From assembly GCF_014171595.1 (NCBI RefSeq), contig NZ_CP050451.1, positions 3,348,001-3,412,000 on the forward strand: a stretch of DNA of 64,000 nt. The letters are read 5' to 3'. A program made the position numbers and the translations under genes. Positions 11,108-60,690 of this stretch are shown piece after piece; within the stretch, counting starts at the first letter, position 1, and every line of letters starts with the position of its first letter. The notes below the pieces were generated by a model that worked only from the letters and a program-made list of their open reading frames with translations, did not search any database and was not told the origin of the DNA. The stretch is from Massilia sp. Se16.2.3. Its GTDB lineage: Bacteria > Pseudomonadota > Gammaproteobacteria > Burkholderiales > Burkholderiaceae_D.

Positions 11108-11419
11108 GGTAGGGTGGGCGCCCCGTGCCCACGCGGTGACAGGTTCCGCACCGCCTCATGGCTCGGTCCCGCGTCGCACGGGCGCCCACCCTACGGTTGC
11201 CCGCGCCGATGCGCACACCGCGGGACCGCGTGGAGTCGGGACTCCACCCTACCGTTGCGGTGCGGATGCTCACATGGTGATCCCGCGTGGGGTCAAGACC
11301 CCACCCTGCGGTGCGCCGCCGCTGCTGGCCCGTGCATGAGGATCGGCCAGCTGCCCCAACCGGCCGCATGGCCTCGGCGGCCCCGATGTATCGCAGGGTG
11401 GGCACCTGTGCCCACGCGG
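11108..11419. repeat. Cluster of five GTAGGGTG/CACGCGG hairpin repeats between converging cyanophycin synthetases
   Basis: Five copies of a short element lie in this gap. Arms: 11114-11119/11127-11132 (GTGGGC/GCCCAC, forward); 11169-11196 (degenerate, reverse); 11230-11237/11240-11247 (GTGGAGTC/GACTCCAC, reverse); 11287-11294/11297-11304 (GTGGGGTC/GACCCCAC, reverse); 11398-11405/11408-11415 (GTGGGCAC/GTGCCCAC, forward). The flanks stay nearly constant (CGTAGGGTGG and CCACGCGG) while the inner arm bases differ from copy to copy and remain complementary. No T-run follows, so these are not ordinary terminators. The GTAG-like edge recalls REP elements moved by RAYT transposases; no transposase is present here. 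Confidence 0.88.
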
Positions 11420-11454
11420 ACTCGCCATTGGTTCATATGCACCGCTATCGCAAG

Positions 11455-11486
11455 CCCGAAAAGCAAAGCGGCCCCGCAGGGCCGCT
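11455..11486 (-). terminator. Terminator of the reverse cyanophycin operon
   Basis: A perfect 8-bp stem, AGCGGCCC (11467-11474) with GGGCCGCT (11479-11486), has loop CGCA. On the reverse strand it is followed by TTTGCTTTT. It lies just past the stop codon of the second synthetase gene. Confidence 0.75.
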
Positions 11487-11508
11487 CGCGAACACACGAC
11501 GCGAAAAC

Positions 11509-14102
11509 TTACGCCGCTTCCATCTCGATCCGCTGCGCGATCTCCGGCTTGGTCGGACGCAGCGCCTCGGTCAGTTCCGAAATCGACGAACCGCAGCCGA
11601 ACACCAGCACGTCGCCGGGCTGGCAGAGCGCGAGGCCGGCGCGGATCGCGCTGTGCACGTCCAGCTCGGTCTGCAGGTGCTCGCCCGGGAAGCGGCCCAG
11701 GCGCGCGCCTTGCACCAGCAGGGCGGCGACGCTGCCGGACACGCGGCCGCGGTTCTCGGTCTCGTAGACCACCAGGTCGTCGAAACCGGCGGCGCAGGTG
11801 CGGCCGATGTCGACCAGGTCGGCGTCGCGGCGGTCGCCCGGCGCGGCCACCACGCCGACCACGCGTCCCGGCGTCATCGCGCGCGCCGTTTCTGCCAGGG
11901 CCGCATAGGCGGCGCAGTTGTGGGCATAGTCGACGATCACCGTCACGCCTTCGACGTCGAACACGTTCGAGCGCAGCGGGTTGTGCTTGCTGTCGGAAAC
12001 GAAGCTGCGCAGGCCGGCGCCGATCTCGTCGTTGCCGAAGCCGCTCGCGGCCAGGGGCCGCGGCCGCCGCCAGCGCGTTGGCGATGTTGTAGCGCGCGCA
12101 GCCGCCGAGCGACACCGGCATCTGGCGCACGTCCAGCAGCGCTTCATGGCGGGCGCCCGTGGCCAGCACCAGGGTGTTGTCCTGCAGGTAGGCACCTCGC
12201 CCGCCCCGTTCCAGGTGGCGCAGCAGGACGGGGTTGTCGGCATCGAGGGCGAAGTACAGCACTTCGACGGTGTCCTGCAAATCCTTCGCCATCGCCACGC
12301 AGTAGTCGTCCTCGGCGTTGAGCACCACGGCGCGCGAGGCACGCTGGGCCACCACCGCCTTGACCTTCGCCAGTTCCTCGACGGTTTCGATGCCGTCCAG
12401 GCCCAGGTGGTCGGAGGACACGTTCAGCACCACCGACACGTCGCAGCGGTCGTAGGCCAGGCCGCGCTTGAGGATGCCGCCGCGGGCCGTTTCCAGCACG
12501 GCGAAGTCGACTTCCGGCGAGGTGAGGAGGGTGCGCGCCGAGCGGTAGCCGGTGCAGTCGCCTTCCATCACGCGCTGCCCGTTCATGTAGACGCCCTCGG
12601 TGGTGGTCACGCCCGTGCGCAGGCCGGTCTGGCGGACCGCGTGCTCGATCAGCAGCGAAGTCGTGGTCTTGCCGTTCGTTCCCGTGATCGCCACCGTCGG
12701 GATGCGGCCATCGTCCTGGCCGAACAAGGCCTCGACAATGGCGGCGCCGGCGTCGCGCGGGGTGCCGCGGCTTGGATACTGGTGCATGCGGATGCCCGGC
12801 GCGGCATTGACCTCGATGATGCCGCCGCCCTGTTCGCGCAATGGCTGCGCGATGTCCTCGCAGATCACGTCGATGCCGGCCACGTCCAGGCCGATCGTGC
12901 GCGCGGCGCGGATGCAGATGGCGCGGGTTTCCTCGGGCAGCAGGTCAGTGACGTCTTCCGCGGTGCCGCCGGTGGACAGGTTGGCGTTGCCGCGCAGGTC
13001 GACACTGACGCCGGCCGGCAGCACGGAGTCGAAGCCGTAGCCCTGTTTCGCCAGGACGTCTTCGGCGATCGCATCCATCGGGATCCTGGTCAGGATATTT
13101 GGTGTGGCCGTCGCCGCGCGCCGGGTTGCGGTTCTCGATCTCGACCAGCTCGCGCACGGTCGACCTGCCATCGCCCGTGACGCAGGGCGGACGTCGCCAG
13201 GAGGCGGCGGCGATCTTGCTGCCGGTGACGAGCACGCGGTAGTCGCGCCCGCGCAGGTATTCCTCGACGATCACGTGGCGGCCGTACTTGCGCGCGTGGT
13301 TGAACGCGGCTTCGACTTCCTCCGGCGTGGTGCAGACCGTGGTCACGCCCTTGCCCCGGTTGGCGTCGAGCGGCTTGATGGTCGCCGGGCCTTTCAGGCG
13401 GCGTGCCACGCGCTGCGCGTCTTCGAGCTTGCTGACGGTGGCGCCGCCCGGCACCGGCACGCCGGCCTGCTCGAGCAGGGTCTTGGTCAGCTGCTTGTCG
13501 CTGGCGATGCCCACCGCGATCGAATTGGTCGCGCCGGTAATGGTCGCCTGCAGGCGTTTCTGGCGGCTGCCCCAGCCCAGCTGGAACAGGTTCGCCTCGT
13601 CGGTGATGCGCAGCGCCGGGATGCCGCGGCGCAGGGCCGCGTTCACCACGGCGCCGGTGCTGGTGCCGATCGCATAGTCTTCCGCCGTCTCGTGCAGGGC
13701 CGCCACCGCGGCATCGAGGTCGAAGGCGTCGCCGCGGCCGAGCGCGGCGATCATCTCGAGGGCGACGTCCGGGGCCTGTCCCGCCACCTGTTCGGTGCGG
13801 TAGCCGCACACGGCACGGCGCGCGTGTGGCTTGCGCGGAATGTCGATCGTCGTGCTGAAGTCGCCGGCGGCACCCGCCAGGCGCTGCAGCTCCATCACGA
13901 CCGGTTCGACGGCGTCAACGGCGCAGGCCAGGTTGGCCAGCCGCGCGGACACCTGCGGCGCCAGGCCGGGCAGCAGGGCGACCAGGCGCGAGCCCGGGTG
14001 CGGCGCCACGGCCACGCCTTCGGTATCGATGACTGCCATCAGGCAGGGGGCTGCGCTGTAGAGGTTGGGGCCGCGCAGGAAGCGTTTTTCGATGGTTCTC
14101 AT
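11509..14102 (-). CDS. cphA: Second cyanophycin synthetase, two frameshifts
   Basis: About 863 residues after removing two single-base insertions, an extra A near 13098 and an extra C near 12058. It has the same layout as the first synthetase: ATP-grasp (ASDKQLTKTLLEQAGVPVP, KPLDANRGKGVTT, EVNAAPGIRMHQYPSRG) and Mur-ligase-like domain (GTNGKTTTSLLIEH, LETARGGILKRGLAYD, VVLNVSSDHLGLDG). Catalytic motifs are complete in both domains. The sequence clearly differs from the first copy, so this is an old paralogue, as in other betaproteobacteria with cphA and cphA'. Its start codon overlaps the cyanophycinase stop (ATGA), so it is translated from the degradative operon. Whether it makes the normal polymer, a variant, or re-uses dipeptides cannot be told. 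Confidence 0.92.
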
Positions 14103-14982
14103 GAGATCGGGTTCCGTTTCGTTACATTTTCCAAAAATTCGCGCAGCGAGGAAGACATCGCTTTTGCATTCGGGTCCTCGTCGGTCGGCAGGTACCAGCG
14201 GCTGCCGGCCGGCAGCAGGTGCAGGCGCACGTCGATCAGTTCGGGAGTGGCGCGCTCGCGGATGTCGGCCATGTTGGTGTCCATCGTGCGGCCATCGACC
14301 ACGGTGACCGAGCCTTCGCCCAGCACCTCGATGCCGCGCCCGCGCTCCACCACCGGGGCCGTGTCCTCGTCGATGCCGATGCCCATCAGGTAGGGGTTCT
14401 GCGCCACCACCGAGAGCAGCCGCGCCAGGCGCTGGCGCTCGGAGAAGTGCTGGTCGATCACGACCTTGTGCAGGAAGCCGAGGCCCGCGCCCAGGCTGAC
14501 CGCGCCCTTTTCCGGCAGCAGGTCGGTCTTGCCCGGGCCAGCATGTGCCCCGACATGGCCGAGGCGCCGGCGCTGGTGCCGCCGATGCAGGCGCCGCGCA
14601 CCTTGAGCGCCGTGTGCATCTCGGCGTCGAGCGCCGTACCGCCGATGATGGCCAGCAGGCGCTTCTGGTCGCCGCCGGTCATGAAGATGCCGTCGGCCTC
14701 GGACACCATGCGCAGCTTTTCTTCGTCGTTGGCGTCCTGGCGGCTCTCCAGGCGCAGGTGGGCGCGCTGTTTCACACCCAGGTCCCCGAAGGCCTTGTCG
14801 TAGACTTCCCACATTTCGTCGGCGATCTGGCTGGCGGCCGTGATGACGACGATGCGGGCATGCGCGCCGCCGGCAAGTTCCACGAAACGGGTCAGGATGG
14901 CCTTGTCGTGCTTGCGGTCTTCGCCTCCGCCGATGATGACGAGGTGGCCGTGCGATGCGGTCCGGTGCGGTTCGGTTTTCAT
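14099..14982 (-). CDS. cphB: Cyanophycinase, one frameshift
   Basis: A serine exopeptidase that cuts cyanophycin to beta-Asp-Arg. About 294 residues after repairing a G deletion near 14540. It starts MKTEPHRTASHGHLVIIGGG. Family motifs are FMTGGDQKRLLAIIGGT and GGTSAGASAMSG, where Ser in TSAG is the nucleophile, then GAGLGFLHKVVIDQHFSER and MGIGIDEDTA, all typical of CphB. There is no signal peptide, so it is cytoplasmic, unlike CphE-type secreted enzymes. Its ATG overlaps the stop of the isoaspartyl peptidase gene (ATGA), and its own stop overlaps the start of the next cphA the same way, showing tight translational coupling. Confidence 0.93.
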
Positions 14983-15891
14983 TTTTCTTCGATGGTTGCA
15001 GTTGGCATCTGGGTATTGCTGCACGAGGCAGCTTCGGTTTTGGTGACGGCAATGAGGCCCGTGTCCACGTCCTTGTCGATCAGGTCGATGCCGCGCTGCA
15101 GCGCGGCCGAGAGCGGCATGCCCTGTTCGAGATAGCCATAGACGGTGCGCGCCAGCATGGTGCGCACGATGTGCTCGCCGACGCCGGTAGCGGCGATCGC
15201 GCCCAGCGGTCCGGCATAGAAGCCGCTGCCCATGACGGCGGTGTCGCCCACGCGCCCCAGCAGCGAGGGTGCCGAGCCGCCGGTGGAGCCAGCCACGGCA
15301 AAGTGGCCGTCCGGGCCGCGCACGACGGCGCCGACGGTGTCGTGGGCGGCGTTCGGCGGCAGTTGCAAAGGGCGTCTTGTAGTTCCAGAAGCGTTCGAAC
15401 ATGCGGTTGTCGATACCGGGCATGGCGGGCACCGAGCCGGCCAGCTGCTTGAGCAGCTTCTCGTGCTTCTCGCGCTGGCTGGGCAGGATGGGTTTTGCCG
15501 GTTCCAGGCCGAGGGCGCGCGCCAGGCGGTCGGCGCCTTCGCCGGCGATGAACACGTGCGGGGTGTCGGCAATGGCGCGTGCCAGCAGGATCGGGTTGCG
15601 CACGTCGCGTACGCCCGCAACGGCGCCGAGGCGTCCGCGCGTATCCATGACCGAGGCGTCCATTTCGATCGTGGCGCCGTCCAGGCACAGGACCGAGCCG
15701 GTGCCGGCGTTGAAGCGTTCGTCTTCTTCGAACACCATGACGGCGGCGATGGCGGCATCGAGGGCGTCGCCTGTTTCGAGCATGTGCTCGCGGCCGCGGC
15801 GGGCGGCGGCTTCGCAACCGTCGGTGTAGTCCAGCGGTTCGCCGGCACCACCATGGGTGACAATCGCAAAACCTTTTAACGTGTTACTCAA
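14979..15891 (-). CDS. iaaA: Isoaspartyl peptidase / type-2 L-asparaginase, one frameshift
   Basis: About 303 residues after removing an extra T near 15366. It is an Ntn-hydrolase that splits itself before a Thr, here in AAHDTVGAVVRGPDG, so the Thr of HDTVGAV is the predicted nucleophile. The N-terminal half shows FAIVTHGGAGEP and NAGTGSVLCLDG; the second half shows GSTGGSAPSLLGRVGD and GVGEHIVRTMLAR. Members hydrolyse beta-aspartyl dipeptides. Here the natural substrate is very probably beta-Asp-Arg released by the cyanophycinase next to it, giving free Asp and Arg. It is the first gene of the reverse operon. Confidence 0.92.
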
Positions 15892-16037
15892 AGCAATTCC
15901 CCTCGAAATGTTCTTGCCATCGCGCTCGTGACGTGTGGCATATCTGATAGAGGATTATGCAAAATGAGATAGAGAACACCTATCGGTACAGCCGCTGTGC
16001 CAATGTAAGAAGAAACTTACATCGGAGACAACTTTTC

Positions 16038-16496
16038 TTAAGGCAGCAGTTTGGCTGGATGATGGCGAATGGCGCGCAGCAGTTCCTGCGCTACCTGCAG
16101 GCGGATGGGTTCCGAGACATAGCTGCCGATGTCGACCGTGCGGTCCGGCGCTTCCAGCCGGATCAGCTTGCGTTCGCGCGGGCGCGGCGGCAGCACGCGC
16201 GTGCGTACCGGGTCGAGCCGGATCTGTTCGCGCCGCCCGCAATCGATGCGCTCGACCAGCAGCCAGCGTTCGGTCAGCGCGATGTGTTCCACGTCGAGCG
16301 CATGGCGGGCGTAGTGCAGCAGCGCCCAGCCCACAGCGGTCATTTCGAGCAGGGCGAATGCGAGCACGATCCAGATACCCTGCAGCAGGAAGACAAGGGC
16401 GATGCCGAAGGAGCCGCAGCACAGCAGCGCATAGACGAGCAGCGACTGGCGCGGCGTCAGCGAGCAGTTGCGCTTCAGTGTCCAGGTGCGTGGCAT
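16038..16496 (-). CDS. DUF2244 family membrane protein
   Basis: 152 residues starting MPRTWTLKRNCSLTPRQ, a common DUF2244 opening. Two adjacent membrane segments (about residues 20-60: LLVYALLCCGSFGIALVF and IWIVLAFALLEMTAVGWAL) are followed by HYARHALDVEHIAL and a soluble C-terminal domain with basic loops (LPPRPRERKLIRLEAPD). Function is unknown; in many proteobacteria the gene sits with cytochrome c oxidase genes, but no oxidase is in this window. It is a single gene, divergent from the Hsp70-like gene and tail-to-head with the cyanophycin operon. Confidence 0.8.
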   Translation of the reverse strand: MPRTWTLKRNCSLTPRQSLLVYALLCCGSFGIALVFLLQGIWIVLAFALLEMTAVGWALLHYARHALDVEHIALTERWLLVERIDCGRREQIRLDPVRTRVLPPRPRERKLIRLEAPDRTVDIGSYVSEPIRLQVAQELLRAIRHHPAKLLP

Positions 16497-16683
16497 CGTG
16501 CGGCCGTGGGGGAAAGGGCAGAACCCGATGGATGCATTATAGATAAGAGCACGCCCAGGGCCCGCGCGGGTTCGCGCACTCCTGTCGGGCAGCGGACGTG
16601 ACTGCCATGCAACGCTGCGGCGGCAGGGATCGCCTGCCTGAGGGGATTCTGGTACTATTTCGCCCCTTCAACGAAAGGCTCAC

Positions 16684-17951
16684 ATGACGAAGGCTTGCGG
16701 CGTCGACTTCGGTACGTCAAATTCAACGGTCGGCTGGCTGGGACAATCCGCCGGCGGGGGCGGGGCGGCGCACAGCCTGCTGGCCCTGGAGGATGGCAAG
16801 GCAACGCTGCCTTCGGTCGTCTTCTTCAATGCCGACGACGACGAGGTGCGCTATGGCCGCGCCGCGCTGGCCGACTACCTGGCCGGCTACGAGGGCCGCC
16901 TGATGCGCTCCCTCAAAAGCCTGCTCGGCACCAGCCTGATGGACGGCCAGACGGAAGTCGCGGGGCGGTCATTGCCGTTCCGGCTGCTGCTGGCCCAGTT
17001 CATCGGCGAACTCAAGCGTCGCGCCGAAAGCCAGGCAGGGCGCCGCTTCGAGCACGCTGTCTTCGGCCGTCCGGTCTTCTTCATCGACGACAACCCCCAG
17101 GCCGACCGCCTGGCCGAGGATACCCTCGCCGAAGTGGCGCGCAGCGTGGGTTTCCGCGAAGTCGCCTTCCAGTACGAACCGATCGCCGCCGCCTTCGATT
17201 ATGAATCGACCATCGCCCGCGAGGAACTGGTCCTCATCGTCGACATCGGCGGCGGTACCTCGGACTTCTCGCTGGTGCGCCTCGGTCCCGAGCGCGCCGG
17301 CAAGCCCGAGCGCCGCGATGACATCCTGGCAACCGGTGGCGTGCACATCGGCGGTACCGACTTCGACAAATACCTGAGCCTGGCCGCAGCCATGCCGCTG
17401 CTCGGCTACCGCGGCCTGTTGCGCTCCGGTGCCGAGATCCCGTCGAGCTATTACTTCAACCTGGCGACCTGGCATACCATCAACCAGGCCTATACCCGCA
17501 AGAGCATCGCCCAGCTGGAAGACCTGGTGCGCGACGCCAGCGAGCCGGGGCCGCTGAGGCGCCTGCAGGGCCTGATCGACGAACGCGCCGGCCACTGGCT
17601 GGCAATGCAGGTCGAGGGCGCGAAGATCGGGCTCTCGTCGGAGGAAACGGTGGTGCTCGACCTCGACCGCCTGCGCCCGCCCGAGAAGCTCGTCGTGACG
17701 CGCCCGCGCTTCGAGGAAGCGATCGGGCCGCTCTGGACAGCATCGACGCCACCGTGCTACGGTTGCTGGCGGACGCCGGCGTGACGGCGAGCGCTGTCGA
17801 TACCGTCTTCTTCACCGGCGGCTCGAGCGGCGTGGGCCTGCTGCGGGCACGCGTCGGCGCCCCGGTGCCGGATGCGCGCAAGGTCGAGGGCGACCTCTTC
17901 GGCAGCATCGGCGCCGGCCTGGCGCTCGACGCCCGGCGCAAATTCGGCTGA
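16684..17951 (+). CDS. Hsp70-family ATPase without substrate-binding domain (YegD-like), one frameshift
   Basis: About 422 residues after repairing one deletion near 17735, where the stretch should read GPLLDSIDATVL. It has the actin-like ATPase motifs: phosphate 1 CGVDFGTSNSTVGWLG, phosphate 2 VLIVDIGGGTSDFSLVRL, and adenosine motif FFTGGSSGVGLLRARVG. DnaK is about 640 residues; here the peptide-binding half is absent, as in YegD. It presumably acts in chaperone-related work but the clients are unknown. It ends 39 bp before the exonuclease gene on the same strand, so the two may be co-transcribed. Confidence 0.83.
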
Positions 17952-17990
17952 CCCGGTCGGCACACCCCAGTTTCCACACCAAGGACCGCC

Positions 17991-18644
17991 ATGTTCGAAC
18001 GCCCCATCGTGATGCTCGACTTCGAGACCACCGGCCTGTCGCCCGACATGGGCGACCGCATTACCGAAGTCGCCGCCCTGCGCATCGAGGACGGGCGCGT
18101 GACCGAGCGCTATGTCTCGCTGGTCAACTGCGGCGCCCGCATCCCGGCCTTCATCACCGGCCTGACCGGCATCACCGGGGACATGGTCGACAGCGCGCCG
18201 CCGGCCCGTCAGGTGGTGCCGGAGCTGCTCGACTTCATCGGCGCCGATACCCTGTCGGCCCACAACGCCAGCTTCGACGAGAAATTCCTGGCGGCCGAGA
18301 GTGCGCGCCTGGGGCAGCAATGCCGCCACGTGGGCCTGGTCTGTTCGCTCAAGCTGTCGCGCCGCGTGTTTCCCGGCATGGCCAGCTACAAGCTCGGGCA
18401 GCTCTCGCGCCAGCTCGGCATTGCCTTTCGCAGCGCCGCGCACCGCGCCGAGGCCGACGCCGAAGTGGCCGCCGAGGTGCTGATCCACATCGGCCGCCAC
18501 CTGGGACGCTCCTACGACCTCAAGTTCATGACGCCCGAACTGCTGGTGGCGATCAACAAGCTGGCCGCGGCCAAGGTACCGGGCTGGTTAAGCAAGAACG
18601 CCAACCAATTCTCAACGGAAAAAGGTGCGACAGCCCTGCCTTGA
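17991..18644 (+). CDS. DEDDh 3'-5' exonuclease (DnaQ/PolC-epsilon-like)
   Basis: 217 residues with the DEDDh exonuclease set: Exo I VMLDFETTGLSPD (Asp and Glu), Exo II LSAHNASFDEKFL (Asp), Exo III HRAEADAEVAAEV (His and Asp). The middle carries ITGLTGITGDMVDSAPP, the usual substrate-edge loop of epsilon-like nucleases. The C-terminal 50 residues (TPELLVAINKLAAAKVPGWL) are outside the core and may be a partner site. It is too short for a fused UvrC or polymerase partner, so a stand-alone nuclease in repair or RNA trimming is likely; which one is not clear from the sequence. Confidence 0.85.
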   Translation: MFERPIVMLDFETTGLSPDMGDRITEVAALRIEDGRVTERYVSLVNCGARIPAFITGLTGITGDMVDSAPPARQVVPELLDFIGADTLSAHNASFDEKFLAAESARLGQQCRHVGLVCSLKLSRRVFPGMASYKLGQLSRQLGIAFRSAAHRAEADAEVAAEVLIHIGRHLGRSYDLKFMTPELLVAINKLAAAKVPGWLSKNANQFSTEKGATALP

Positions 18645-18666
18645 AAAGCATTACAATGCCGCCATC

Positions 18667-19014
18667 ATGATGCGTCGTTGTATTGTCCACGTCCTGCTGT
18701 CGCTGCTTCTGCTGGTCTCCCAGCAGATGGCGCTCGTGCATGCGATGTCGCACTGGACCGGCAAGCTGGGCGCAGGCAACCCGGCGGCGCAGCAACTGGA
18801 ACGCGACGCCGACCTGTCGAGTGCCGTCGCCCAGGACCAGAGCTGCAGCCAGTGCCTGGCGTTCGCCCAGATGGCCGGCGCCATCGGCAGCAGCACCCGC
18901 AGTTTCGTCCCCCTCGACCTGCGCACCGAGCGCGTCACCGCGTTCGCCTTCGTCGAAGCTTCCCCCAGCACTGTTCCCGTCTTCCATTCGCGCGCACCGC
19001 CGCGCTTCGTCTAG
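18667..19014 (+). CDS. DUF2946-like small exported protein
   Basis: 115 residues starting MMRRCIVHVLLSLLLLVSQQ, a clear signal peptide or membrane anchor. A His-containing segment (ALVHAMSHW) and a CxxC-type pair (SCSQCLAFAQ) follow, and the C-terminus is VPVFHSRAPPRFV, all reminiscent of DUF2946 proteins found beside metal-linked outer-membrane receptors. It is the first gene of a run to the porin, ZnuA-like and ZnuB-like genes. His and Cys residues would suit metal binding in the periplasm, which is inference. Just upstream, 18648-18659 is a short palindrome (GCATT-AC-AATGC) overlapping a TACAAT -10-like hexamer, a possible metal-regulator site. Confidence 0.6.
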   Translation: MMRRCIVHVLLSLLLLVSQQMALVHAMSHWTGKLGAGNPAAQQLERDADLSSAVAQDQSCSQCLAFAQMAGAIGSSTRSFVPLDLRTERVTAFAFVEASPSTVPVFHSRAPPRFV

Positions 19015-19090
19015 GTCCACGTCGTCCGCCATGGCCTGCCGTCCCCGACGGCAGCTGCCCTGTATTCCCTATTCGAACTGGAAGAACACG

Positions 19091-20524
19091 ATGTCGAAAC
19101 ACACCGTCCTGGCCGCGGCGATTGCCGCCGCCTTTGCTTTGCCCCTGTCCGCCCACGCGGCCACCAACACCGCGACTCCGGCCGAACTGGATGCCATCCG
19201 CGCCCAGATCGCCGAGATGAAGCAGTCCTACGAAGCGCGCCTGCAGGCGCTCGAACAACGCCTGCAGGATGCCCAGGCCGCCGTGGCCGAGGCCCAGAAC
19301 GCGGCGGCCGCCGCCCAGCAGGCCTCGAGCCAGCCGGCACCAGGCCCGGCCGCCGTCCCGGCGCCGGATGCCCAGGCTGCACCAGGCGCCCGCGCCGCAG
19401 GCGACAACAGCTTCAACCCGAGCATCTCGCTGGTCCTCGGCGGCACTTTCAGCAAGCTGTCGCAGGATCCCGAGACTTACCGCTTCGGTGGCTTCATGCC
19501 GCCAGGCGGCGAAGTCGGCCCCGGCAGCCGCAGCTTCAACCTGGGCGAGTCGGAACTGACGATGTCGGCCAATATCGACCCCCTGTTTGCCGGCCAGCTG
19601 ACCTTTGCCCTCAGCGGCGAGAACGAAGCCGAGGTCGAGGAAGCTTTCGTGCGTACCCGCGAACTGGGCGGCGGCTGGAACCTCAAGGCAGGGCGCTTCC
19701 TCTCAAGCGTCGGTTACCTGAATGGCCAGCACAGCCACACCTGGGACTTCGTCGACGCGCCGCTGGCCTATGGCGCCTTCCTCGGCGGCCAATACAAGCC
19801 GGACGGCGTCCAGGCGCGCTGGCTGGCGCCGCTCAACACCTTCCTGGAAGTGGGCGCGGAACTGGGCAGCGGGCGCAGCTTCCCAGGCAGCGACCGCAAC
19901 AAGAACGGCTTCAACGCCACCAGCGTGTTCGCCCACCTGGGCGACGACATCGGCGATTCGGGCAGCTGGCGTGCCGGCCTGTCCTGGCTGCGTACGGGTG
20001 CGGCCGGCCGCGCGTACGAGGACATGGAAAGCGGCATCCCGACCGCGTTTGGCGGCCGTTCGACGCTGTGGATCGCGGACGCCGTCTACAAATGGGCGCC
20101 GAACGGCAATCCGACGCGGCAGAATGTCAAGCTGCAGGGCGAGTACTTCCGCCGCAAGGAGAGCGGCAGCCTGTCGGTCGAGGACCTGTCCGACCGCTAT
20201 GCGAGTTCGCAGTCGGGCTGGTACCTGCAGGGCGTCTACCAGTTCATGCCGAACTGGCGCGCGGGCCTGCGCTACGATCGCCTGGCGTCGGGCACGCCAT
20301 CCATCGGCCTGGTCGACGACGGCGCTTTCGGATCGGACGCGTTCCCGGCCCTGGCACGCTACAACCCGAAGCGCGCGAGCGTGATGCTCGACTGGAGCCC
20401 GTCCGAATTCTCGCGCCTGCGCCTGCAGTTCGCGCGCGACGAGGCCCGTCCCGGCGCGCTTGATAACCAGCTCTTCCTGCAATACATCATGAGCCTCGGC
20501 GCCCACGCCGGCCACACGTTCTAA
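19091..20524 (+). CDS. Outer-membrane porin-like protein of the metal-uptake operon
   Basis: 477 residues. Signal peptide (MSKHTVLAAAIAAAFALPLSAHA), then an Ala/Gln-rich coiled coil at about residues 30-80 (AQIAEMKQSYEARLQALEQR) and a Pro/Ala linker, then a beta-barrel region with alternating aromatic strands (RSFNLGESELTMSANIDPLF, LKLQGEYFRRKE-like segments, WYLQGVYQFMPNWRAGLRYD) ending in Phe (GAHAGHTF), the usual signal for barrel insertion. It resembles porins found next to zinc ABC transporters. It sits 10 bp before the ZnuA-like gene. The likely role is metal or metal-chelate entry across the outer membrane, inferred from position. Confidence 0.75.
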   Translation: MSKHTVLAAAIAAAFALPLSAHAATNTATPAELDAIRAQIAEMKQSYEARLQALEQRLQDAQAAVAEAQNAAAAAQQASSQPAPGPAAVPAPDAQAAPGARAAGDNSFNPSISLVLGGTFSKLSQDPETYRFGGFMPPGGEVGPGSRSFNLGESELTMSANIDPLFAGQLTFALSGENEAEVEEAFVRTRELGGGWNLKAGRFLSSVGYLNGQHSHTWDFVDAPLAYGAFLGGQYKPDGVQARWLAPLNTFLEVGAELGSGRSFPGSDRNKNGFNATSVFAHLGDDIGDSGSWRAGLSWLRTGAAGRAYEDMESGIPTAFGGRSTLWIADAVYKWAPNGNPTRQNVKLQGEYFRRKESGSLSVEDLSDRYASSQSGWYLQGVYQFMPNWRAGLRYDRLASGTPSIGLVDDGAFGSDAFPALARYNPKRASVMLDWSPSEFSRLRLQFARDEARPGALDNQLFLQYIMSLGAHAGHTF

Positions 20525-20534
20525 GGAGTACGAC

Positions 20535-21449
20535 ATGACACCCATCTCTACCAGACTGCTCGCCCTCTGCACGCTGGCCCTCGGCATGCTCGCCCTGCCT
20601 GCGCAGGCTGCGCTGAACGTGCTCGCCTGCGAGCCCGAATGGGCCGCGCTCACACAGGAAATCGGCGGCGACAAGGTCAGCGTCTCGAGCGCGACGAATG
20701 CGCTGCAGGACCCGCACCGCGTCGAAGCCCGCCCCGACCTGATCGCCCGCACCCGCAATGCCGACCTGCTGGTCTGCACGGGCCTGGACCTGGAAGCGGG
20801 CTGGCTGCCGCTGCTGGTCCAGCAATCGGGCAATGCGAAGATTGCCAAGGGCCAGCCGGGCTATTTCGAAGCGGGCAGTTTCGTGCCGCGCCTGGAGGTG
20901 CCGGCGAAACTCGACCGCGCCGAGGGGGACGTGCATGCCTTCGGCAATCCGCACGTGCACTTGAACCCGCACAACATCGCCCTGGTCGGCAGCCAGCTGG
21001 CCAGGCGCCTGGCCAGCATCGACCCGGCGAACGCCGCGCTGTACGCATCGCGCCAGGCTGACTTCAGCGCGCGCTGGGCCCAGGCCATGCGCAAGTGGGA
21101 AGCCCGGGCGGCGCCCCTGCGTGGCCTGACGGTGGTCGAGCATCATCGCAACATGGAATACCTGCTGGCCTGGCTGGGCATGCGCCAGGTCGGCACGCTG
21201 GAACCGAAGCCGGGGATCGAACCCTCCGCCGCCCAGCTGGGGCAATTGCTGGCAGGGCTCGAGCGCCAGCCGGCGAAGATGGTGCTGCGCGCGGCCTACC
21301 GGGACGAACGCGCCTCGCAGTGGCTGTCGCAGCGCGCACGCATCCCCGCGGTGGTGATTCCCTTCACCGTGGGAGCGGACGCCCGGAGCGGCAACCTGTT
21401 CGCCCTGTTCGACACGACCGTGCAACGCCTGGCGGAAGCGGCCAAGTGA
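20535..21449 (+). CDS. znuA: Zinc/metal ABC transporter substrate-binding protein (ZnuA-like)
   Basis: 304 residues with a signal peptide (LALGMLALPAQAALNV). Candidate metal ligands are His in LQDPHRVEARPD, His residues in GNPHVHLNPHN, His in VVEHHRNMEYLLAW, and an acidic residue near the end. It lacks the long His-rich loop of E. coli ZnuA. It would hand Zn(II), or possibly Mn(II), to the inner-membrane permease. Its stop overlaps the permease start (GTGA), so the two are coupled. Metal choice is inferred from the porin and permease neighbours. Confidence 0.85.
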   Translation: MTPISTRLLALCTLALGMLALPAQAALNVLACEPEWAALTQEIGGDKVSVSSATNALQDPHRVEARPDLIARTRNADLLVCTGLDLEAGWLPLLVQQSGNAKIAKGQPGYFEAGSFVPRLEVPAKLDRAEGDVHAFGNPHVHLNPHNIALVGSQLARRLASIDPANAALYASRQADFSARWAQAMRKWEARAAPLRGLTVVEHHRNMEYLLAWLGMRQVGTLEPKPGIEPSAAQLGQLLAGLERQPAKMVLRAAYRDERASQWLSQRARIPAVVIPFTVGADARSGNLFALFDTTVQRLAEAAK

Positions 21450-22214
21450 ACACCGAGACCTTCGACTTCCTGATCGTCCTCCCGGCCTTCGTTGCCGGCC
21501 TGCTGGTACTGGCGACCCACATTCCCCTCGGCGCCCAGGTACTGCGCCGCGGGATCGTCTTCATCGACCTGGCGATCGCCCAGATCGCCGCGCTGGGGGT
21601 GATCCTGGCCAGCACCGTCGACCTCGACCCGCATGGCTGGACCATCCAGCTGGCGGCCGGCGGCGCCGCGGTGCTGGGCGCCTTGCTGCTGACCTGGACC
21701 GAGAAGCGCTGGCCGGACGTGCAGGAAGCGCAGATCGGCGTGCTGTTCGTGCTGGCTGCCACCGCCGGCCTGCTGCTGGTTGCCCACAACCCGCACGGCG
21801 GCGAGCACCTGCAGGACCTGCTGGCCGGCCAGATTCTCTGGGTCAGCTACGACCAGCTGGTCATCCCCGCGCTGGGCACGGTGCTGATCCCGGGGCTGTT
21901 GGCAGCCTTCCGCAACCGCTTGCGGCGCCCGGGCTTCTACCCGGTGTTCGCGCTGGCGGTGACGGCCTCGGTGCAGCTGGTCGGCGTCTACACCGGTCTT
22001 TGCCAGCCTGATCGTGCCGAGCCTGGCGGTGCGCCATTATCCCGAGTCGCGCAAGCTGCCGGTGGCCTACCTGGTCGGCGTGGCCGGCTACGCGGTCGGC
22101 CTGGTGCTGTCGGTGGTGCTCGACCTGCCGTCCGGCGCGCTCATCGTCTGGTGCCTCGCGCTGCTGGCGATGCTGGTGTACGCGCTCGGACCGAAACGGG
22201 CCATGCAGGCCTGA
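21446..22214 (+). CDS. znuB: Metal ABC transporter permease (ZnuB-like), one frameshift
   Basis: About 255 residues after removing an extra G near 21993, which restores VGVYTVFASLIVPSLAVRHY. It begins at a GTG overlapping the ZnuA stop. Roughly seven membrane segments follow: FLIVLPAFVAGLLVLATHIP, LAIAQIAALGVILAST, IQLAAGGAAVLGALLL and others, with the ABC-3 family loop LLAGQILWVSYDQLVIP. It pairs with the substrate-binding protein. No ATP-binding subunit is encoded beside it or elsewhere in the window; the only ABC ATPase, at 59.8 kb, is of the YbbA type. A terminator follows at 22253. Confidence 0.85.
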
Positions 22215-22252
22215 ACCGCCGAACAGCACGCGCGGTCCGGCCGCACCAACCA

Positions 22253-22282
22253 CCCGCCCGGCAGCGCCGCGGCGGGTTTTTT
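22253..22282 (+). terminator. Terminator after the metal-uptake operon
   Basis: Stem CCCGCC (22253-22258) with GGCGGG (22271-22276), followed by TTTTTT. It lies about 40 bp past the permease stop. Confidence 0.75.
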
Positions 22283-22452
22283 CATGCCCGCGCCACCGGC
22301 ACGATTGTGCCCAGTCAAACGGATGCAGACTCAATTCATTAAAATTTTGTTAATACTTATGAGGCCGCTTGTCCGCCTTATTCATGATCGCCGGCGCTGC
22401 GGAGCTGCGGCCCATCCTTGAGAGCATCCGCGCGCCTACACGGGGGAACAGC

Positions 22453-23841
22453 ATGAACCGGCAGAAGCTCGGGCAGGAAAACCAGCAAACCTACCTGTGG
22501 TTCCGCGAAGCCGCTGAACGCGGCAATGCCTACGCCCAGTTCAACCTCGCATTGCTCTACAAAAAGGGTGAAGGCGTCCCCCGCGACGACACGCGTGCCG
22601 TGGCCTGGCTGCGCCTGGCCGCCATGCAGGGCCTGGCTTTTGCCCAGAACCACCTGGGCGCGATGTATTACCACGGGCGCGGCGTGGCACGCTGCGATAC
22701 CGAAGCCGCGCGCTGGTTTCGCCGCGCCGCCGAGCAGGGCGATGCGTCGGCCCAGCAGAACCTCGGCCACATGTGCCGCCAGGGCCGCGGCGTCGCCCAC
22801 GATCCCGAACGGGCCCTGTCCCGGTATTACCGGGCGGCCGAGCAGGGCATGCCGGGCGCCCAGAACCAGCTCGGCGAATGCTACCTGGAAGGCATCGGCA
22901 CCGCCGTCAACCATCCGCTGGCAATGGCCTGGTTCCGCAAGGCGGCACTGCAGGGCGATGCCCCCGCGCAGCTGAACCTGGGCCTGATGTACCAGCGCGG
23001 CCAGGGCGTGGACGCGAACGACAAGCAGGCCCTGTACTGGTTCCGCAAAGCCGCAGCCGCCGGCGAGCGCGGCGCCCAGCGCCAGCTCGGCATCGCCTAC
23101 GCGGAGGGGCGCGGCGTGCGCGCCGACCCGCGCCGCGCCTGCGCCTGGTTGACGCGCGCGGCCGACCATGGCGACCGCGAAGCCCAGTTCCTGCTCGGGA
23201 ACATGTACGCCAGCGGCGCGGGCATCGAAACCGACGAGCGGCGTGCGCTCGACTTGTACACCGGGGCGGCGCGCCTGGGCCACGTGGCGGCCCAGTACAA
23301 CCTGGCCAACATGCATGCCCACGGCCGCGGCACCGAGCGCGACCCGAAGCAGGCCTTCGAGTGGTACCGGCGCGCCGCCGAGCAGGGCGCGGCGAATGCG
23401 CAGTTCAACCTGGGCGTGAGCTTTGCCAACGGCCAGGGCGTCGAACGCGACGAGGCGCGCGCCGCGCACTGGTACCGGCTGGCGGCCGAGCAGGGCGATG
23501 CCAGCGCCCAGAACAACCTGGGCGTCATGTACGCCAGCGGCCGGGGCCTGCCGCACGACGACCGCCTGGCCGTGTACTGGTACGAGCAGGCGGCCGAGCA
23601 GGGCCATGCGCTGGCCCAGTACAACCTGGGCGGCATGATCGGCAGCGGGCTGGGAGTTGCGCGCGATCCGGTGCGTGCCTACATGTGGATGCTGCTGGCG
23701 GCCGAGGGCGGAGACGCCACCGCCAACGTCAACAAGTCCATCGTCGCGCGGCGCCTGTCTCCCTCCGAGATCGGGCGCGCGCTCGACCTGTCGCACAAGT
23801 GGCAGCTGAGCCACCGCGAAGGGCGCAACCGGCAGGAGTGA
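22453..23841 (+). CDS. Sel1-repeat (tetratricopeptide-like) protein
   Basis: 462 residues built almost wholly of about twelve Sel1-like 36-residue repeats, with units such as AAEQGDASAQNNLG and LYKKGEGVPRDD. The repeats are intact and regular up to about residue 420; a charged helical tail follows (IGRALDLSHKWQLSHREG). No signal peptide is seen with this start. ATG 22453 is chosen because GGGGGA precedes it and the upstream in-frame extension to 22369 is not repeat-like. Sel1 proteins act as protein-protein scaffolds, often in envelope stress or signalling; no partner is encoded nearby. Confidence 0.85.
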   Translation: MNRQKLGQENQQTYLWFREAAERGNAYAQFNLALLYKKGEGVPRDDTRAVAWLRLAAMQGLAFAQNHLGAMYYHGRGVARCDTEAARWFRRAAEQGDASAQQNLGHMCRQGRGVAHDPERALSRYYRAAEQGMPGAQNQLGECYLEGIGTAVNHPLAMAWFRKAALQGDAPAQLNLGLMYQRGQGVDANDKQALYWFRKAAAAGERGAQRQLGIAYAEGRGVRADPRRACAWLTRAADHGDREAQFLLGNMYASGAGIETDERRALDLYTGAARLGHVAAQYNLANMHAHGRGTERDPKQAFEWYRRAAEQGAANAQFNLGVSFANGQGVERDEARAAHWYRLAAEQGDASAQNNLGVMYASGRGLPHDDRLAVYWYEQAAEQGHALAQYNLGGMIGSGLGVARDPVRAYMWMLLAAEGGDATANVNKSIVARRLSPSEIGRALDLSHKWQLSHREGRNRQE

Positions 23842-23954
23842 CCGGTGTATTGCCCCGTATTGACGCGCGCACCGATGTCGCTTACGGCCGGGTTTCGCGT
23901 TATGATGCCTTTCGGCACATTTCGCCTACCACGACTTTTCGTCCCGAGAACAAT

Positions 23955-26090: not shown

Positions 26091-26129
26091 GGGAAGGGCG
26101 GGCGGACTCCGCCCGCGTTGCACGGACGT

Positions 26130-26170
26130 CGGGCCAGCGAATCAATCGATTCGGCTGGCCCGATTTGTTT
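26130..26170 (+). terminator. Terminator of the prolyl oligopeptidase gene
   Basis: Stem CGGGCCAGC (26130-26138) with GCTGGCCCG (26154-26162), with a second inner stem GAATC/GATTC, followed by ATTTGTTTT. Confidence 0.8.
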
Positions 26171-26230
26171 TCAATGCCAGTTGTTCGGCGCCGCGCATGA
26201 GTTCCACGCCGCCGCTGCACATGTTCTCTA

Positions 26231-26438
26231 CCGCGTGGAGTCAGGACTCCACCCTACGAACCGCGGCTCACGTAGGGTGGAGTCCTGACTCCACGCGGTA
26301 CGGCGCCTCCATGCCGAGGCGTAGCGTGGGCACCCCATGCCCACGCGGAAGTCAGCGCCGTGTTTGCAGATCAGATCGTGACCCGTTTGCTCATCGTTCC
26401 GCGCGGGCGCGGGGTGCCTCGGCGGCCCGCCCCTACCG
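26231..26438. repeat. Hairpin repeat cluster with a head-to-head pair
   Basis: Four copies of the GTAGGGTG/CACGCGG family. 26235-26242/26245-26252 (GTGGAGTC/GACTCCAC, reverse) and 26277-26284/26287-26294 (GTGGAGTC/GACTCCAC, forward) are exact mirror images with 12 bp between them, so the whole of 26231-26298 can also fold as one long hairpin. 26326-26332/26338-26344 is GTGGGCA/TGCCCAC. A degenerate copy at 26399-26438 (arms GCGGGC/GCCCGC) overlaps the stop codon of the XRE-cupin gene. The region lies between converging genes. Confidence 0.85.
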
Positions 26439-27011
26439 ATGCACGACAACGAGCAAGGCCTTCGCCTCGGTCTTGCCCAGATTGCGAATCACGTGATCCT
26501 GGTCCGCCGGATACCGCGCCGTCCCGCCCGCCTTCACCTTGCGCTTTTCCAGCCCGACCTCCACTTCCAGCGTCCCATTAATCACCGTCATGTGCTCCTT
26601 GGTGCCCGGATCATGCGCCTGCGAAGCGAGCGCGCCGCCCGGCGCGAGCGTCAGCTCATACCATTCATACTGCCCGGCCAGCTCCATCGGGCCCAGGATG
26701 CGCAGGATATAGCCGGCATGGTTGCCCGGCAGGGTAGGCGTCTCGTGGGCGTCGACGACGCGGATCGCTTCGACATCCCGGGTTTCGGAAGCCAGCAGTT
26801 CGCCGATCTGCACGCCGAGCGCGTTGGCGAGGCGCCAGGTGATGGCGATGGTAGGATTGGCCTTTTCGCGCTCGATCTGCGACAGCATCGATTTCGAGAC
26901 CCCCGCGATACGCGACAGGTCCTCCAGCGTCAGGCCGCGCGCCAGGCGCAGGCGCTGCAGGGTGGCGCCGACTTCGGGCGGGGCATTGTTGGTCATGACC
27001 GGGGTTTTCAT
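26433..27011 (-). CDS. XRE-family regulator with C-terminal cupin domain
   Basis: 192 residues. The N-terminal helix-turn-helix (GATLQRLRLARGLTLEDLSR, then GVSKSMLSQIEREKANPTIA) is followed by a beta-barrel cupin (GALASQAHDPGTKEHMTVIN, then GGTARYPADQDHVIRNLG). This layout is that of small-molecule-responsive repressors such as PuuR. It is divergent from kbl with about 214 bp between starts, which suggests control of the threonine/serine catabolic operon; that is inference. The start is uncertain: ATG 27011 is chosen, 26996 and 27083 are alternatives. The effector cannot be read from the sequence. Confidence 0.85.
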   Translation of the reverse strand: MKTPVMTNNAPPEVGATLQRLRLARGLTLEDLSRIAGVSKSMLSQIEREKANPTIAITWRLANALGVQIGELLASETRDVEAIRVVDAHETPTLPGNHAGYILRILGPMELAGQYEWYELTLAPGGALASQAHDPGTKEHMTVINGTLEVEVGLEKRKVKAGGTARYPADQDHVIRNLGKTEAKALLVVVHR

Positions 27012-27225
27012 CTCGATAAAGGCAGCACTGGTGTTGGAGTCGGCCGCAGCTTGCCAAGTTCGACAGGTGGGCGTAATATTCATTATATTGAATTTTAGTT
27101 CGAGATAGCGAAAAAGCAGCAGGGCACTGAAATCGAACGGGTTCGGAACAACGGTACAGCATAGTCCGGCGGACGGTCAAGCCGCCGCCAGTCATTCGCA
27201 CAGACAGCACAGACAGGGAAATCAC

Positions 27226-28440: not shown

Positions 28441-28468
28441 TCAGGCATTACGACAGGAATACAAGAAT

Positions 28469-29425: not shown

Positions 29426-29477
29426 TCCGACCCTTTTATCACCATAATAATAAAAACGCGCAGAGAGACAAATCCAG

Positions 29478-30875: not shown

Positions 30876-30893
30876 GCTAAATATCGTCGCTTT

Positions 30894-30933
30894 CAGGGTG
30901 GGCGGGGCCGCCGAGGCGCCCCGTGCCACGCGG
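30894..30933 (+). repeat. Degenerate hairpin repeat upstream of thrC
   Basis: One forward copy, CAGGGTGG...CCACGCGG, whose core carries GGGGC and GCGCCCC arms around CGCCGAG. The same core word, GCCGCCGAGGC, appears in reverse in the copy at 26399-26438. It lies between sdaA and thrC. Confidence 0.65.
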
Positions 30934-30996
30934 TGGGGACATGCCATCCCCGCTGCACCAATCTCGACCGCATCCGCAGGATTCCCCGGCCCGCAC

Positions 30997-31002
30997 TATA
31001 AT
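30997..31002 (+). promoter_or_regulatory. Possible -10 box of thrC
   Basis: A perfect TATAAT lies 39 bp before the thrC ATG. No good -35 hexamer is seen 16-18 bp upstream, so the promoter may need an activator or may be chance. Confidence 0.4.
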
Positions 31003-34087: not shown

Positions 34088-34217
34088 GCAGGGTGGACGG
34101 CTCGCCATTCAGGCCCACGGCCTGAATGGCTCCACGCGGTCAACGCACGGGTGCAGGCCGACATCCGAGGGGAAGCGCGATGCGTACGCGTGGACGGGAA
34201 ACCCGTCCACGCTACGG
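34088..34217. repeat. Two hairpin repeats with long variant arms
   Basis: First copy 34088-34139 (forward): the flanks CGCAGGGTGGA and TCCACGCGG enclose a 12-bp perfect stem, GCCATTCAGGCC (34104-34115) with GGCCTGAATGGC (34119-34130). Second copy 34187-34217 (reverse): GTGGACGGG (34190-34198) with CCCGTCCAC (34202-34210) and loop AAA. Both lie between the converging moaD and TRAP genes. The arms differ from every other copy yet pair perfectly. Confidence 0.85.
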
Positions 34218-35260: not shown

Positions 35261-35355
35261 ATTCATCCTCCAAGATGAGCAAACGAACTACCGGGCGAAT
35301 CGTGGGCACATCGGGGTGCCCATCGTTCACATGTGTGCAGAGTACAGACTGATCT

Positions 35356-48096: not shown

Positions 48097-48233
48097 CGCG
48101 TGGGCTCGAGAGCCCACCCTACGAAACCAGCGATACGTAGGGTGGAGTCCTGACTCCACGCGGTCCACCGGTCGAGTTGACGCGCCATCGTTGGCAACGT
48201 GATTTCGTAGGGTGGGCTTTCAAGCCCACGCGG
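48097..48233. repeat. Three hairpin repeats between the RND pump and tRNA-Leu
   Basis: 48100-48107/48110-48117 (GTGGGCTC/GAGCCCAC, reverse), 48142-48149/48152-48159 (GTGGAGTC/GACTCCAC, forward), 48212-48219/48222-48229 (GTGGGCTT/AAGCCCAC, forward). All three keep the CGTAGGGTGG and CCACGCGG flanks. The rest of the 409-bp gap, 48234-48459, holds no gene that I can support; it should contain the tRNA-Leu promoter. Confidence 0.88.
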
Positions 48234-57835: not shown

Positions 57836-57856
57836 GCCCAGGCCCGCTCGAAGAAA

Positions 57857-57921: not shown

Positions 57922-57984
57922 CGCAGGGTGGACGGCGAAACCGCCATCAGCTGCGTAGAGCAGACGCTTGCGCCGTCCACGCGT
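57922..57984 (+). repeat. Long-loop hairpin repeat between ppiD and mnmH
   Basis: GTGGACGGCG (57928-57937) pairs with CGCCGTCCAC (57971-57980) across a 33-bp loop. The left flank is the usual CGCAGGGTGG; the right flank is CACGCGTTCAAT in place of CACGCGG. The degenerate copy at 60609-60690 carries the same ATTGAACGCG word, so the two form a sub-family. The remaining 57985-58169 holds no gene that I can support. Confidence 0.75.
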
Positions 57985-58169
57985 TCAATCGGGCCCGATG
58001 GGCTGCGCGGCGCGCGACGGGGATTGCCGGAGAGGGAGAGCAGGGAGGAAGGCCGCTATTGCGGCCCGGCTTGCCTACGCGGCATCCTTGACGCCGATGG
58101 TTTCAATCAGGACCGGTTATCCAGGGCGAGCGCGCAGGGACGGCGCCGGCGGCCTGCGCCGACGCCGTT

Positions 58170-59225: not shown

Positions 59226-59848
59226 CGTGATTTGATCAGGTTCGAGAAGGTCGGCCAGATGTTATTGAGGATAATCGGGTGCGCCTGCGCGGTCGGGTGC
59301 AGGCGGTCGGCCTGGAACAGCGCCGGCTTGTCGGCCACGCCTTCGAGCATGAAGGGCACCAGCGGCGCCTTGTATTCGGTGGCCAGCACCTTGTACATGC
59401 CGAAGAAGCGTTCGGTGTATGCGCGGCCATAGTTCGGCGGCATGCGCATGCCAACCAACATGACTTTCGCCTCCTTCTTCTGCGACAGATTGATCATCTG
59501 GCGCAGGTTGTTTTCTGCCGCCGCCACGGCCAGGCCGCGCAGGCCATCGTTCGCCCCGAGTTCGATGACGACGATCTGTGGCTTGTGCTGATCGAGCAGG
59601 GCCGGCAGGCGTGCGCGTCCGCCGCTGGTGGTTTCGCCGCTGATGCTGGCGTTGACGATGCGCGCGTCGATCTTCTCGCGCTGCAGCTTCTGTTCGAGCA
59701 GGGCGACCCAGCCCGCGCCCCGTGCAAGGCCATATTCGGCCGAGAGGCTATCGCCCAACACCAATACGGTTTTTGGTGCAGAATAAGCGCTCGCCGACGC
59801 GGCCAACATGAGCGCACCGACAGACAATTTCTTGAAAATGGCAAGCAT
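59222..59848 (-). CDS. tesA: Periplasmic GDSL esterase / thioesterase I (TesA/arylesterase)
   Basis: 208 residues with a signal peptide (MLAIFKKLSVGALMLAASAS). SGNH blocks: I VLGDSLSAEYGLARG (Ser), II ASISGETTSGG (Gly), III IELGANDGLRG (Asn), V ADRLHPTAQAH (Asp, His). It cleaves acyl esters and acyl-thioesters in the periplasm. It is divergent from ybbA; the two start codons overlap inside GCATGC. It runs into mnmH by a 4-bp overlap. Confidence 0.92.
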   Translation of the reverse strand: MLAIFKKLSVGALMLAASASAYSAPKTVLVLGDSLSAEYGLARGAGWVALLEQKLQREKIDARIVNASISGETTSGGRARLPALLDQHKPQIVVIELGANDGLRGLAVAAAENNLRQMINLSQKKEAKVMLVGMRMPPNYGRAYTERFFGMYKVLATEYKAPLVPFMLEGVADKPALFQADRLHPTAQAHPIILNNIWPTFSNLIKSR

Positions 59849-60563
59849 GCGTGATAATCCCGAGGGCTATAAAAATACGACCACCGCCGCGGCGGGCCAA
59901 CCGGCCGCGATCGAGGTGGCGGGGCTGTCGAAGCGGGTGGCGGACGCCAGCGGCGAACTCACCATCCTGCACAGTGTCGATTTTACCGTGCAACCGGCCG
60001 AGACGCTTGCCATCGTGGGCGCGTCCGGTTCCGGCAAGTCGACGCTGCTCGGTTTGCTGGCCGGGCTCGACACGCCCAGCAGCGGCCGTGTGCTGCTCGA
60101 TGGCACCGACATCTTCGCGCTCGACGAAGACGACCGCGCCGCCTTCCGCATGGCCAAGCTCGGCTTCGTGTTCCAGTCCTTCCAGCTGCTGCCGCACCTG
60201 ACCGCGGTTGAGAACGTGATGCTGCCGCTTGAACTGCGTGGCGACGGCGAGGCGCGCGCCAAGGCCGAAGCGATGCTCGGCCGGGTGGGGCTTGCCAGCC
60301 GCCTGCGCCACTATCCGAAATACCTGTCCGGCGGCGAGCAGCAGCGCGTGGCCCTGGCGCGTGCTTTTGTTACCGAGCCACCCTTGCTGTTTGCGGACGA
60401 GCCGACGGGCAGCCTGGATGCCACCACCGGCGAAGCGGTCATCGGGCTGATGTTCGAGCTCAATCGCGAGCGTGGGTCGACCCTTGTGCTGGTGACGCAC
60501 GATCCGGCGATGGCGGCACGCTGCGGGCGGACGATTACGATTGCGGCGGGGCGCCTCGTCTGA
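59847..60563 (+). CDS. ybbA: ABC transporter ATPase (YbbA/LolD type)
   Basis: 238 residues from ATG 59847 (MRDNPEGYKN); starts at 59838 and 59808 are also possible but would lie inside tesA. Walker A GASGSGKSTLLGLLAG, signature LSGGEQQRVALARA, Walker B LLFADEPTGSLD, switch His in LVTHDPAMAARCG. It works with a YbbP-type permease, which is not in the window (a hairpin repeat and nnr follow). The tesA/ybbA divergent pair is widely conserved. The LolD-like fold suggests lipoprotein or lysophospholipid handling. Confidence 0.88.
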   Translation: MRDNPEGYKNTTTAAAGQPAAIEVAGLSKRVADASGELTILHSVDFTVQPAETLAIVGASGSGKSTLLGLLAGLDTPSSGRVLLDGTDIFALDEDDRAAFRMAKLGFVFQSFQLLPHLTAVENVMLPLELRGDGEARAKAEAMLGRVGLASRLRHYPKYLSGGEQQRVALARAFVTEPPLLFADEPTGSLDATTGEAVIGLMFELNRERGSTLVLVTHDPAMAARCGRTITIAAGRLV

Positions 60564-60608
60564 AGATGGTGGTGCCGGGTTGTTCCACCCGGCGTCGTGA
60601 CAGGGCGC

Positions 60609-60690
60609 CGTAGCGCGGGCCGTATTGAACGCGTGAGCGGCGCGTACGGTGCGTAGATGCGGACGGCCGGGTGGAGCCGCGCACCCTACG
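60609..60690 (-). repeat. Degenerate hairpin repeat between ybbA and nnr
   Basis: A worn copy read on the reverse strand: GCGTAGGGTGCGCGG on one side, CACGCGTTCAAT-like on the other. It matches the 57922 copy in its end word. It lies in the convergent gap of ybbA and nnr and slightly overlaps the end of nnr. Confidence 0.55.

Follow-up and report, generated by a model that had tools for sequence, protein, structure and literature searches.

Paired arm words in a GTAG-type REP family of a Massilia/Telluria-like bacterium and their possible replacement as whole hairpins

REP copies in the window and across the genome

The window, by which we mean the whole 64 kb stretch of DNA analysed here (G000:C1:3348001-3412000; GC 66.7%), belongs to a source genome of 5.35 Mb. 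Judged by threonine synthase, the nearest named relatives are Massilia sp. IC2-477 (86%), Telluria antibiotica (85%) and Massilia sp. MS-15 (84%), a ranking from which records very close to the source genome may be absent. A search of the window with Rfam returned three tRNAs only, with no REP above the gathering score. The REP clusters of the window lie outside Pfam-supported genes, and a few matches of the family pattern elsewhere look coding. On the minus strand at 34224-35266, a solute-binding protein of the DctP type is matched in parts by two overlapping frames, and a frameshift may have split this gene.

The hairpins of the window (Table 1) are almost certainly GTAG-type REP elements of a Massilia/Telluria-like bacterium, often placed as inverted pairs (REPINs). 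The sequence GTAGGGTGG, with at most one mismatch, occurs 19 times in the window compared with 7.4 expected, and none of 100 shuffles reaches 19. The first-pass annotation had counted about 16 copies with constant edges. Twelve copies carry both edges together with three paired first inner bases, and the long-arm copy at 34088 can be added on account of its fold, which is strong relative to shuffles; four others are weak. The constancy of the edges did not hold, as the heads GCAG and GTAGC are also present.

Table 1. Family copies and candidate copies in the window. "Yes" marks the 12 copies with both edges and three paired first inner bases; z compares the predicted fold with shuffles.
Position	Strand	Feature	Edges and pairing	Fold
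11109..11134	+	REP, 11-nt class, arms GGGCGC/GTGCCC (one G-T)	Yes
11170..11195, limits approximate	-	Decayed REP, 3' arm broken (copy at 11186)
11228..11252	-	REP, arms GGAGTC/GACTCC	Yes
11285..11309	-	REP, arms GGGGTC/GACCCC, head GCAG	Yes
11393..11417	+	REP, arms GGGCAC/GTGCCC, head GCAG	Yes
26233..26257	-	REP, arms GGAGTC/GACTCC; inverted pair with 26272..26296	Yes
26272..26296	+	REP, arms GGAGTC/GACTCC; inverted pair with 26233..26257	Yes
26321..26346	+	REP, head GTAGC closing lower mismatch, arms GGGCAC/ATGCCC	Yes
26398..26438	-	Doubtful degenerate REP with insert		Wider stretch folds like shuffles, z 0.9
30894..30933	+	REP with insert, GTAG head lost		Folds like shuffles, z 0.0
34088..34139	+	Nested 12-bp perfect palindrome inside REP edges		z -4.8
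34188..34215	-	REP, head GTAGC, arms GGACGGG/CCCGTCC	Yes
48098..48122	-	REP, arms GGGCTC/GAGCCC	Yes
48137..48161	+	REP, arms GGAGTC/GACTCC	Yes
48207..48231	+	REP, arms GGGCTT/AAGCCC	Yes
57923..57982	+	Long inner stretch within REP edges and arms GGACGGCG/CGCCGTCC	Yes
60600..60692	-	Copy of the first-pass annotation, family membership unconfirmed		60609-60690 folds like shuffles, z -1.1

Searched genome-wide, the exact edge pattern AGGGTGG-N(5-30)-CCACGCGG found 306 copies of ~27-29 nt each, compared with one match of the reversed pattern that served as control. On the strength of this contrast and of the window shuffles (0 of 100), a chance origin was rejected. The analysis covered 177 copies, namely the 178 distinct places listed among the 306 matches minus one that overlapped another copy. 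The inner part measured 10 nt in 82 of these copies, 11 nt in 56, and 7, 12, 13 or 21-30 nt in the remaining 39. The heads seen in the family were GTAG, GCAG and GTAC. Neighbouring copies less than 300 bp apart were inverted in 50 of the 60 pairs listed, which is the REPIN arrangement. Members of an inverted pair belonged to the same length class in 38 of 50 cases (18 expected; 0 of 2000 shuffles), and arm-word agreement within REPINs of two 10-nt copies was at chance level (8 of 18, with 6.8 expected). With a slightly wider pattern, at least 10 matches were obtained in 26 of 36 congeners and at most 7, near the control counts, in 24 genomes of other families. The family reaches its highest abundance in the Massilia/Telluria-like genus.

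More elaborate forms were also recorded. BIME-like tandem arrays of REP pairs occur in the source genome at 69965-70467 (period ~218 bp) and 2896646-2897471 (~213 bp). Perfect palindromes of 11-12 bp nested within REP edges were found eight times: at 34088-34139 in the window, at 202397 (L020) in the source genome, and in the compared pieces of two congeners, G010 and G019, where some shared sites hold the nested palindrome in one species and a plain REP in the other. An insert of 14-16 nt, which follows inner base 2 of the 5' arm and is similar in sequence across several arm classes, is exemplified at 742307, 1416070 and 726539 in the source genome, at 30894 in the window and in REPs of G010 and G019. 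Two contig starts of G019 (G019:C1:17-61 and G019:C2:10-54) are nearly alike and each is fused to a REP; the stretch is perhaps a repeated element that inserted in REPs and broke the assembly.

Arm pairing, predicted fold and RAYT genes

The two main length classes differ in how strictly their arms pair. Among the 82 copies of the 10-nt class, Watson-Crick pairing holds for 326 of 328 inner pairs, a proportion that falls to 0.70 after shuffling of the 3' arms, and imperfect arms are confined to two copies. The arm words of this class in the source genome are GCTC, GCAC, GCAT, AGTC, ACTC, ACAC, GGTC and a single GCGC. The 56 copies of the 11-nt class pair at 0.89, barely above the shuffled value of 0.87 because their arms are nearly constant; at arm position 3 of this class, 34 copies in the source genome are Watson-Crick, 14 are G-T and 8 are unpaired. 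The genome-wide count of arm classes and complementarity that the first-pass annotation had proposed, run here as an edge-pattern search, thus found a paired 10-nt class and a less strict 11-nt class, and the statement that the arms always stay complementary describes the former but fits the latter only loosely.

When the 10-nt class was reduced to its 19 distinct types, 99.3% of cells were paired, compared with 17-60% in shifted frames, and the covariation score was 0.406, compared with 0.000-0.069. Three of five structure measures on these types lay above all 500 shuffles; those for pairs changed on both sides (4/8) and for further pair types did not. For the plain unit, folding as single-stranded DNA is predicted to give a stem of ~7-8 pairs with a short loop, in which GTA is unpaired and the last G of GTAG is paired, followed by a G-G mismatch. 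The loop base and the arm word are linked in the source genome (Fisher 1e-10), which suggests that the hairpins travel as units. The earlier proposal that the folded form itself is kept is sustained insofar as pairing is held while letters change, but letter-by-letter compensation is not the best reading of that pattern.

The source genome contains three Y1_Tnp genes. A RAYT gene whose own flanks carry the family repeat, which the first-pass annotation had suggested looking for, is present outside the window: L033 (Y1_Tnp match at 465423-465791) lies between two inverted AGTC-arm REPs, at -187 (+) and +125 (-) of the match. Its protein scores 180.7 bits with NCBIfam NF047646, above the cut-off of 80, and the structure of E. 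coli TnpA-REP, 4er8, is matched at 2.2e-47. The other two genes, L031 and L032, fall below the NF047646 cut-off; L031 has no flanking REPs and L032 has two, both on one side. L032 was rejected as a REP-type RAYT owing to its score below the cut-off and the absence of a TnpA-REP structure match. In both G010 and G019, one RAYT at a place common to the two species is flanked by ACAC-arm REPs and another RAYT by GTAC-headed REPs of the 11-nt class. GCAC, the common 10-nt word of G019, flanks none of the three RAYTs examined among the four of that genome. In other members of the genus, 29 Y1_Tnp loci (L114-L142, those of the best-scoring matches) showed no recognisable paired family REP in the 1.5 kb around the match.

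Arm words at sites shared by two congeners

Arm words at orthologous sites allow the mechanism of class switching to be tested: an exchange of blocks predicts whole-word steps toward the common word of the genome, whereas compensation predicts half-changed intermediates. G010 and G019 were aligned at 92.0% identity over 454 kb of compared pieces, a comparison that represents one species pair. The pieces hold 66 and 67 REP sites, respectively, of which 26 and 27 have no syntenic partner there, as counted from the edge pattern with at least one included match that looks coding. Each species thus has 40 syntenic REP sites, of which 35 and 36, respectively, carry a REP in the other species as well, and the number of REPs differs between the two species at some of them. 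One-to-one pairing was feasible at 21 of 45 unique sites and yielded 36 REP pairs; the other 24 sites were excluded for a different number or order of REPs or for want of a usable REP. Inner lengths of 10, 11 and 22-27 nt entered the pair comparison and other lengths were excluded. The list of switched sites was compiled without requiring paired inner bases.

In the 10-nt class, the arm word differs in 14 of 19 one-to-one pairs, and pairing is complete in all 28 of the hairpins involved. Thirteen of the 14 changes have A:T as the first pair in G010 and G:C in G019, with none in reverse (sign test 2.4e-4); the fourteenth is GCAC versus GCTC. The words at the switched sites are the common ones of the respective genome: ACAC (26) and ACTC (10) account for most of the 47 10-nt words in the G010 pieces, and GCAC (36) and GCTC (9) for most of the 50 in the G019 pieces. 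Five pairs keep the same word, including the two RAYT-flanking REPs, which are the only A/A pairs, and an insert-bearing copy whose arms pair imperfectly in G010. All 17 pairs of the 11-nt class have the same arm word in both species, although their heads and loops do differ. The contrast between the classes (14 of 19 versus 0 of 17; Fisher 3.2e-6) is subject to the bias that insert-bearing copies were assigned to the 10-nt or 11-nt class by better pairing, and these p-values are optimistic, since the REPs of a pair, and the sites, are not independent. Imperfect arms are found in 1 of 47 and 0 of 50 10-nt copies in the G010 and G019 pieces and in 10 of 52 11-nt copies in the G019 pieces. Of the 36 REP pairs, 5 have the 14-16 nt insert in just one of the two species.

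Fifteen spacers were compared, each ranked against the 14 others. Between two switched REPs, the ortholog was the best match at four of five sites, one of these four spacers being just 14-15 nt long, and at the fifth it did not rank first among the spacers compared; beside a single switched REP, it ranked first in 0 of 3 cases. Spacer identity at switched sites is ~60-75%, so there has been time enough for ordinary mutation. At the tRNA-Leu site (48.1-48.2 kb in the window), the words of the source genome form a third set in the same position; between G010 and G019, the tRNA-Leu spacer measures 40 nt in one species versus 15 nt in the other. The flank on the GTAG side was less alike than that on the CGG side in 24 of 36 orthologous REPs (G010/G019; Wilcoxon p 0.009), a divergence that could reflect the start of exchange or cleavage.

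Proposed replacement of hairpins, rival readings and known systems

One-way change of whole words at fixed sites, loops linked to arms and movable inserts suggest, most simply, that units are replaced. The arm variation is probably best explained by a REP/RAYT family in which whole hairpins are overwritten at established sites. The likely reader would be the transposase TnpA-REP. In the species studied, this enzyme recognises GTAG, the folded strand and irregularities of the loop or stem; arm letters would therefore be free to differ between sub-families if paired. At an established site, the arms, the loop and the optional insert would be overwritten as one block, and the incoming arm word would be the one common in that genome. 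Because such a block would bring the donor's complementarity with it, base-by-base rebuilding would be unnecessary. The agent might be TnpA-REP itself, which would cleave REPs and transfer strands between them, or template switching or gene conversion primed by the constant edges. Gene conversion was reportedly put forward for REP evolution by Higgins et al. in 1988; the idea that conversion homogenises REPs is common to that account and ours, and here it is followed at orthologous sites, where the arm word serves as a label. Whether REPs are overwritten singly by a spreading arm word, with location and often spacer kept, in a short-tract homogenisation perhaps catalysed by TnpA-REP, we consider evenly balanced. 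Support for block replacement comes from sequence comparison. Among the observations that count against it are the divergence of the spacers and the four that do not rank first, the 11-nt class, in which G-T and unpaired positions (22 of 56 at position 3) look like ordinary stepwise decay, the chance-level agreement of words within REPINs, and the flanks of the G019 RAYTs.

The first-pass annotation favoured a different course, in which hairpins drift singly and a change in one arm is made good in the partner base by selection for folding. Letters do change while pairing persists, the divergence of the G010 and G019 spacers leaves room for such steps, and G-T intermediates are frequent at position 3 of the 11-nt class. 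Imperfect arms are nonetheless rare in the 10-nt class of all three genomes, 13 of 14 changes run in one direction while the equally exposed 11-nt class shows none, and unpaired loop bases change together with the arms; stepwise compensation seems to us rather unlikely. The loss of REPs followed by fresh insertion of a spreading class at the same favoured places is decidedly improbable. It would accommodate the differing REP numbers at some sites, the five spacers near switched REPs that lack clear orthology and the unequal tRNA-Leu spacers, but most syntenic sites are common to both species and the spacer between two switched REPs is still the ortholog at four of five sites.

Two further readings have, in our estimate, very little probability. 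If one arm templated the correction of its partner at replication, a single event would alter both and paired changes would arise without selection, but the same word at independent sites, the changes of loops with arms, and the gain and loss of inserts would be left unexplained. An RNA role that keeps the fold, such as transcript ending or protection, draws on the position of window clusters between convergent 3' ends (~11.1-11.4, 26.2-26.4, 34.1-34.2 and 57.9 kb), but such a role would give a genome no reason to prefer a single arm word. Around the 11.1-11.4 kb cluster, each of the two convergent genes has a terminator-like hairpin with a T-rich tail, at 11077-11097 (+) and 11487-11466 (-); both hairpins fall outside the REPs, and the RNA reading is weakened there. 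A terminator scan of window positions 11000-30999 called 13 sites (12.4 expected), none of them a REP, and identity as intrinsic terminators was rejected for that part of the window.

If block replacement is correct, "covarying arms" record the exchange of blocks and not selection on single base pairs. A hairpin copied whole can carry its complementarity along, so covariation in a dispersed hairpin family does not on its own prove that an RNA fold is under selection.

Paired arm variation and class switching in REPs are already published, and the ortholog comparison is a useful addition to them. The arm variation as such was known, in the accessible text of each paper, from Di Nocera et al. 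(2013), Nunvar et al. (2013) and Bertels and Rainey (2011), and the earlier statement that classical REP families keep the arm sequence is contradicted by passages in PMC3733652 and PMC3686654. Within the open-licence literature searched, we found no report of a REP family in Massilia or of in-place replacement of REP arms. Within most GTAG families, sub-families that differ by "alternative complementary stem residues" are described (Di Nocera et al. 2013, PMC3733652), and the GTAG superfamily, above all in its GTAG-1 format, resembles the present family in having GTAG at one end, extra bases separating GTAG from the stem and a short tail opposite, as well as 2-4 nt loops, alternative complementary stems, G-T pairs, inverted dimers and a RAYT link. 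The main text of that paper contains no match for Massilia, Janthinobacterium or Burkholderi, and its family table is a figure. In E. coli, an irregular stem is stated to be required by TnpA-REP (PMC8266576, in the part available). The REPINs of P. fluorescens SBW25, for which compensatory changes in the spacer hairpin are reported in the accessible text (Bertels and Rainey 2011, PMC3116915), share the inverted REP pairs and the variable spacer; unlike them, the pairs studied here often differ in arm word (8 of 18 10-10 pairs agree in the source genome).

The nearest parallel in form is found in Pseudomonas, where, as far as the accessible text goes, REP classes have similar edges and different complementary arms, a change termed orthoswitch (Nunvar et al. 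2013, PMC3686654). PF8-PF16 of orthogroup IV have near-constant edges with different complementary arms, an arm class tied to its RAYT and several classes per genome, as here. The same text treats the molecular mechanism of class switching as speculation only, and replacement of whole units, if true, is a candidate mechanism for this unexplained orthoswitch. In the model given there, switching begins at the RAYT-flanking REPs and old copies decay in place; here, in contrast, the RAYT-flanking ACAC copies are the same in G010 and G019, and it is the dispersed copies at shared sites that differ.
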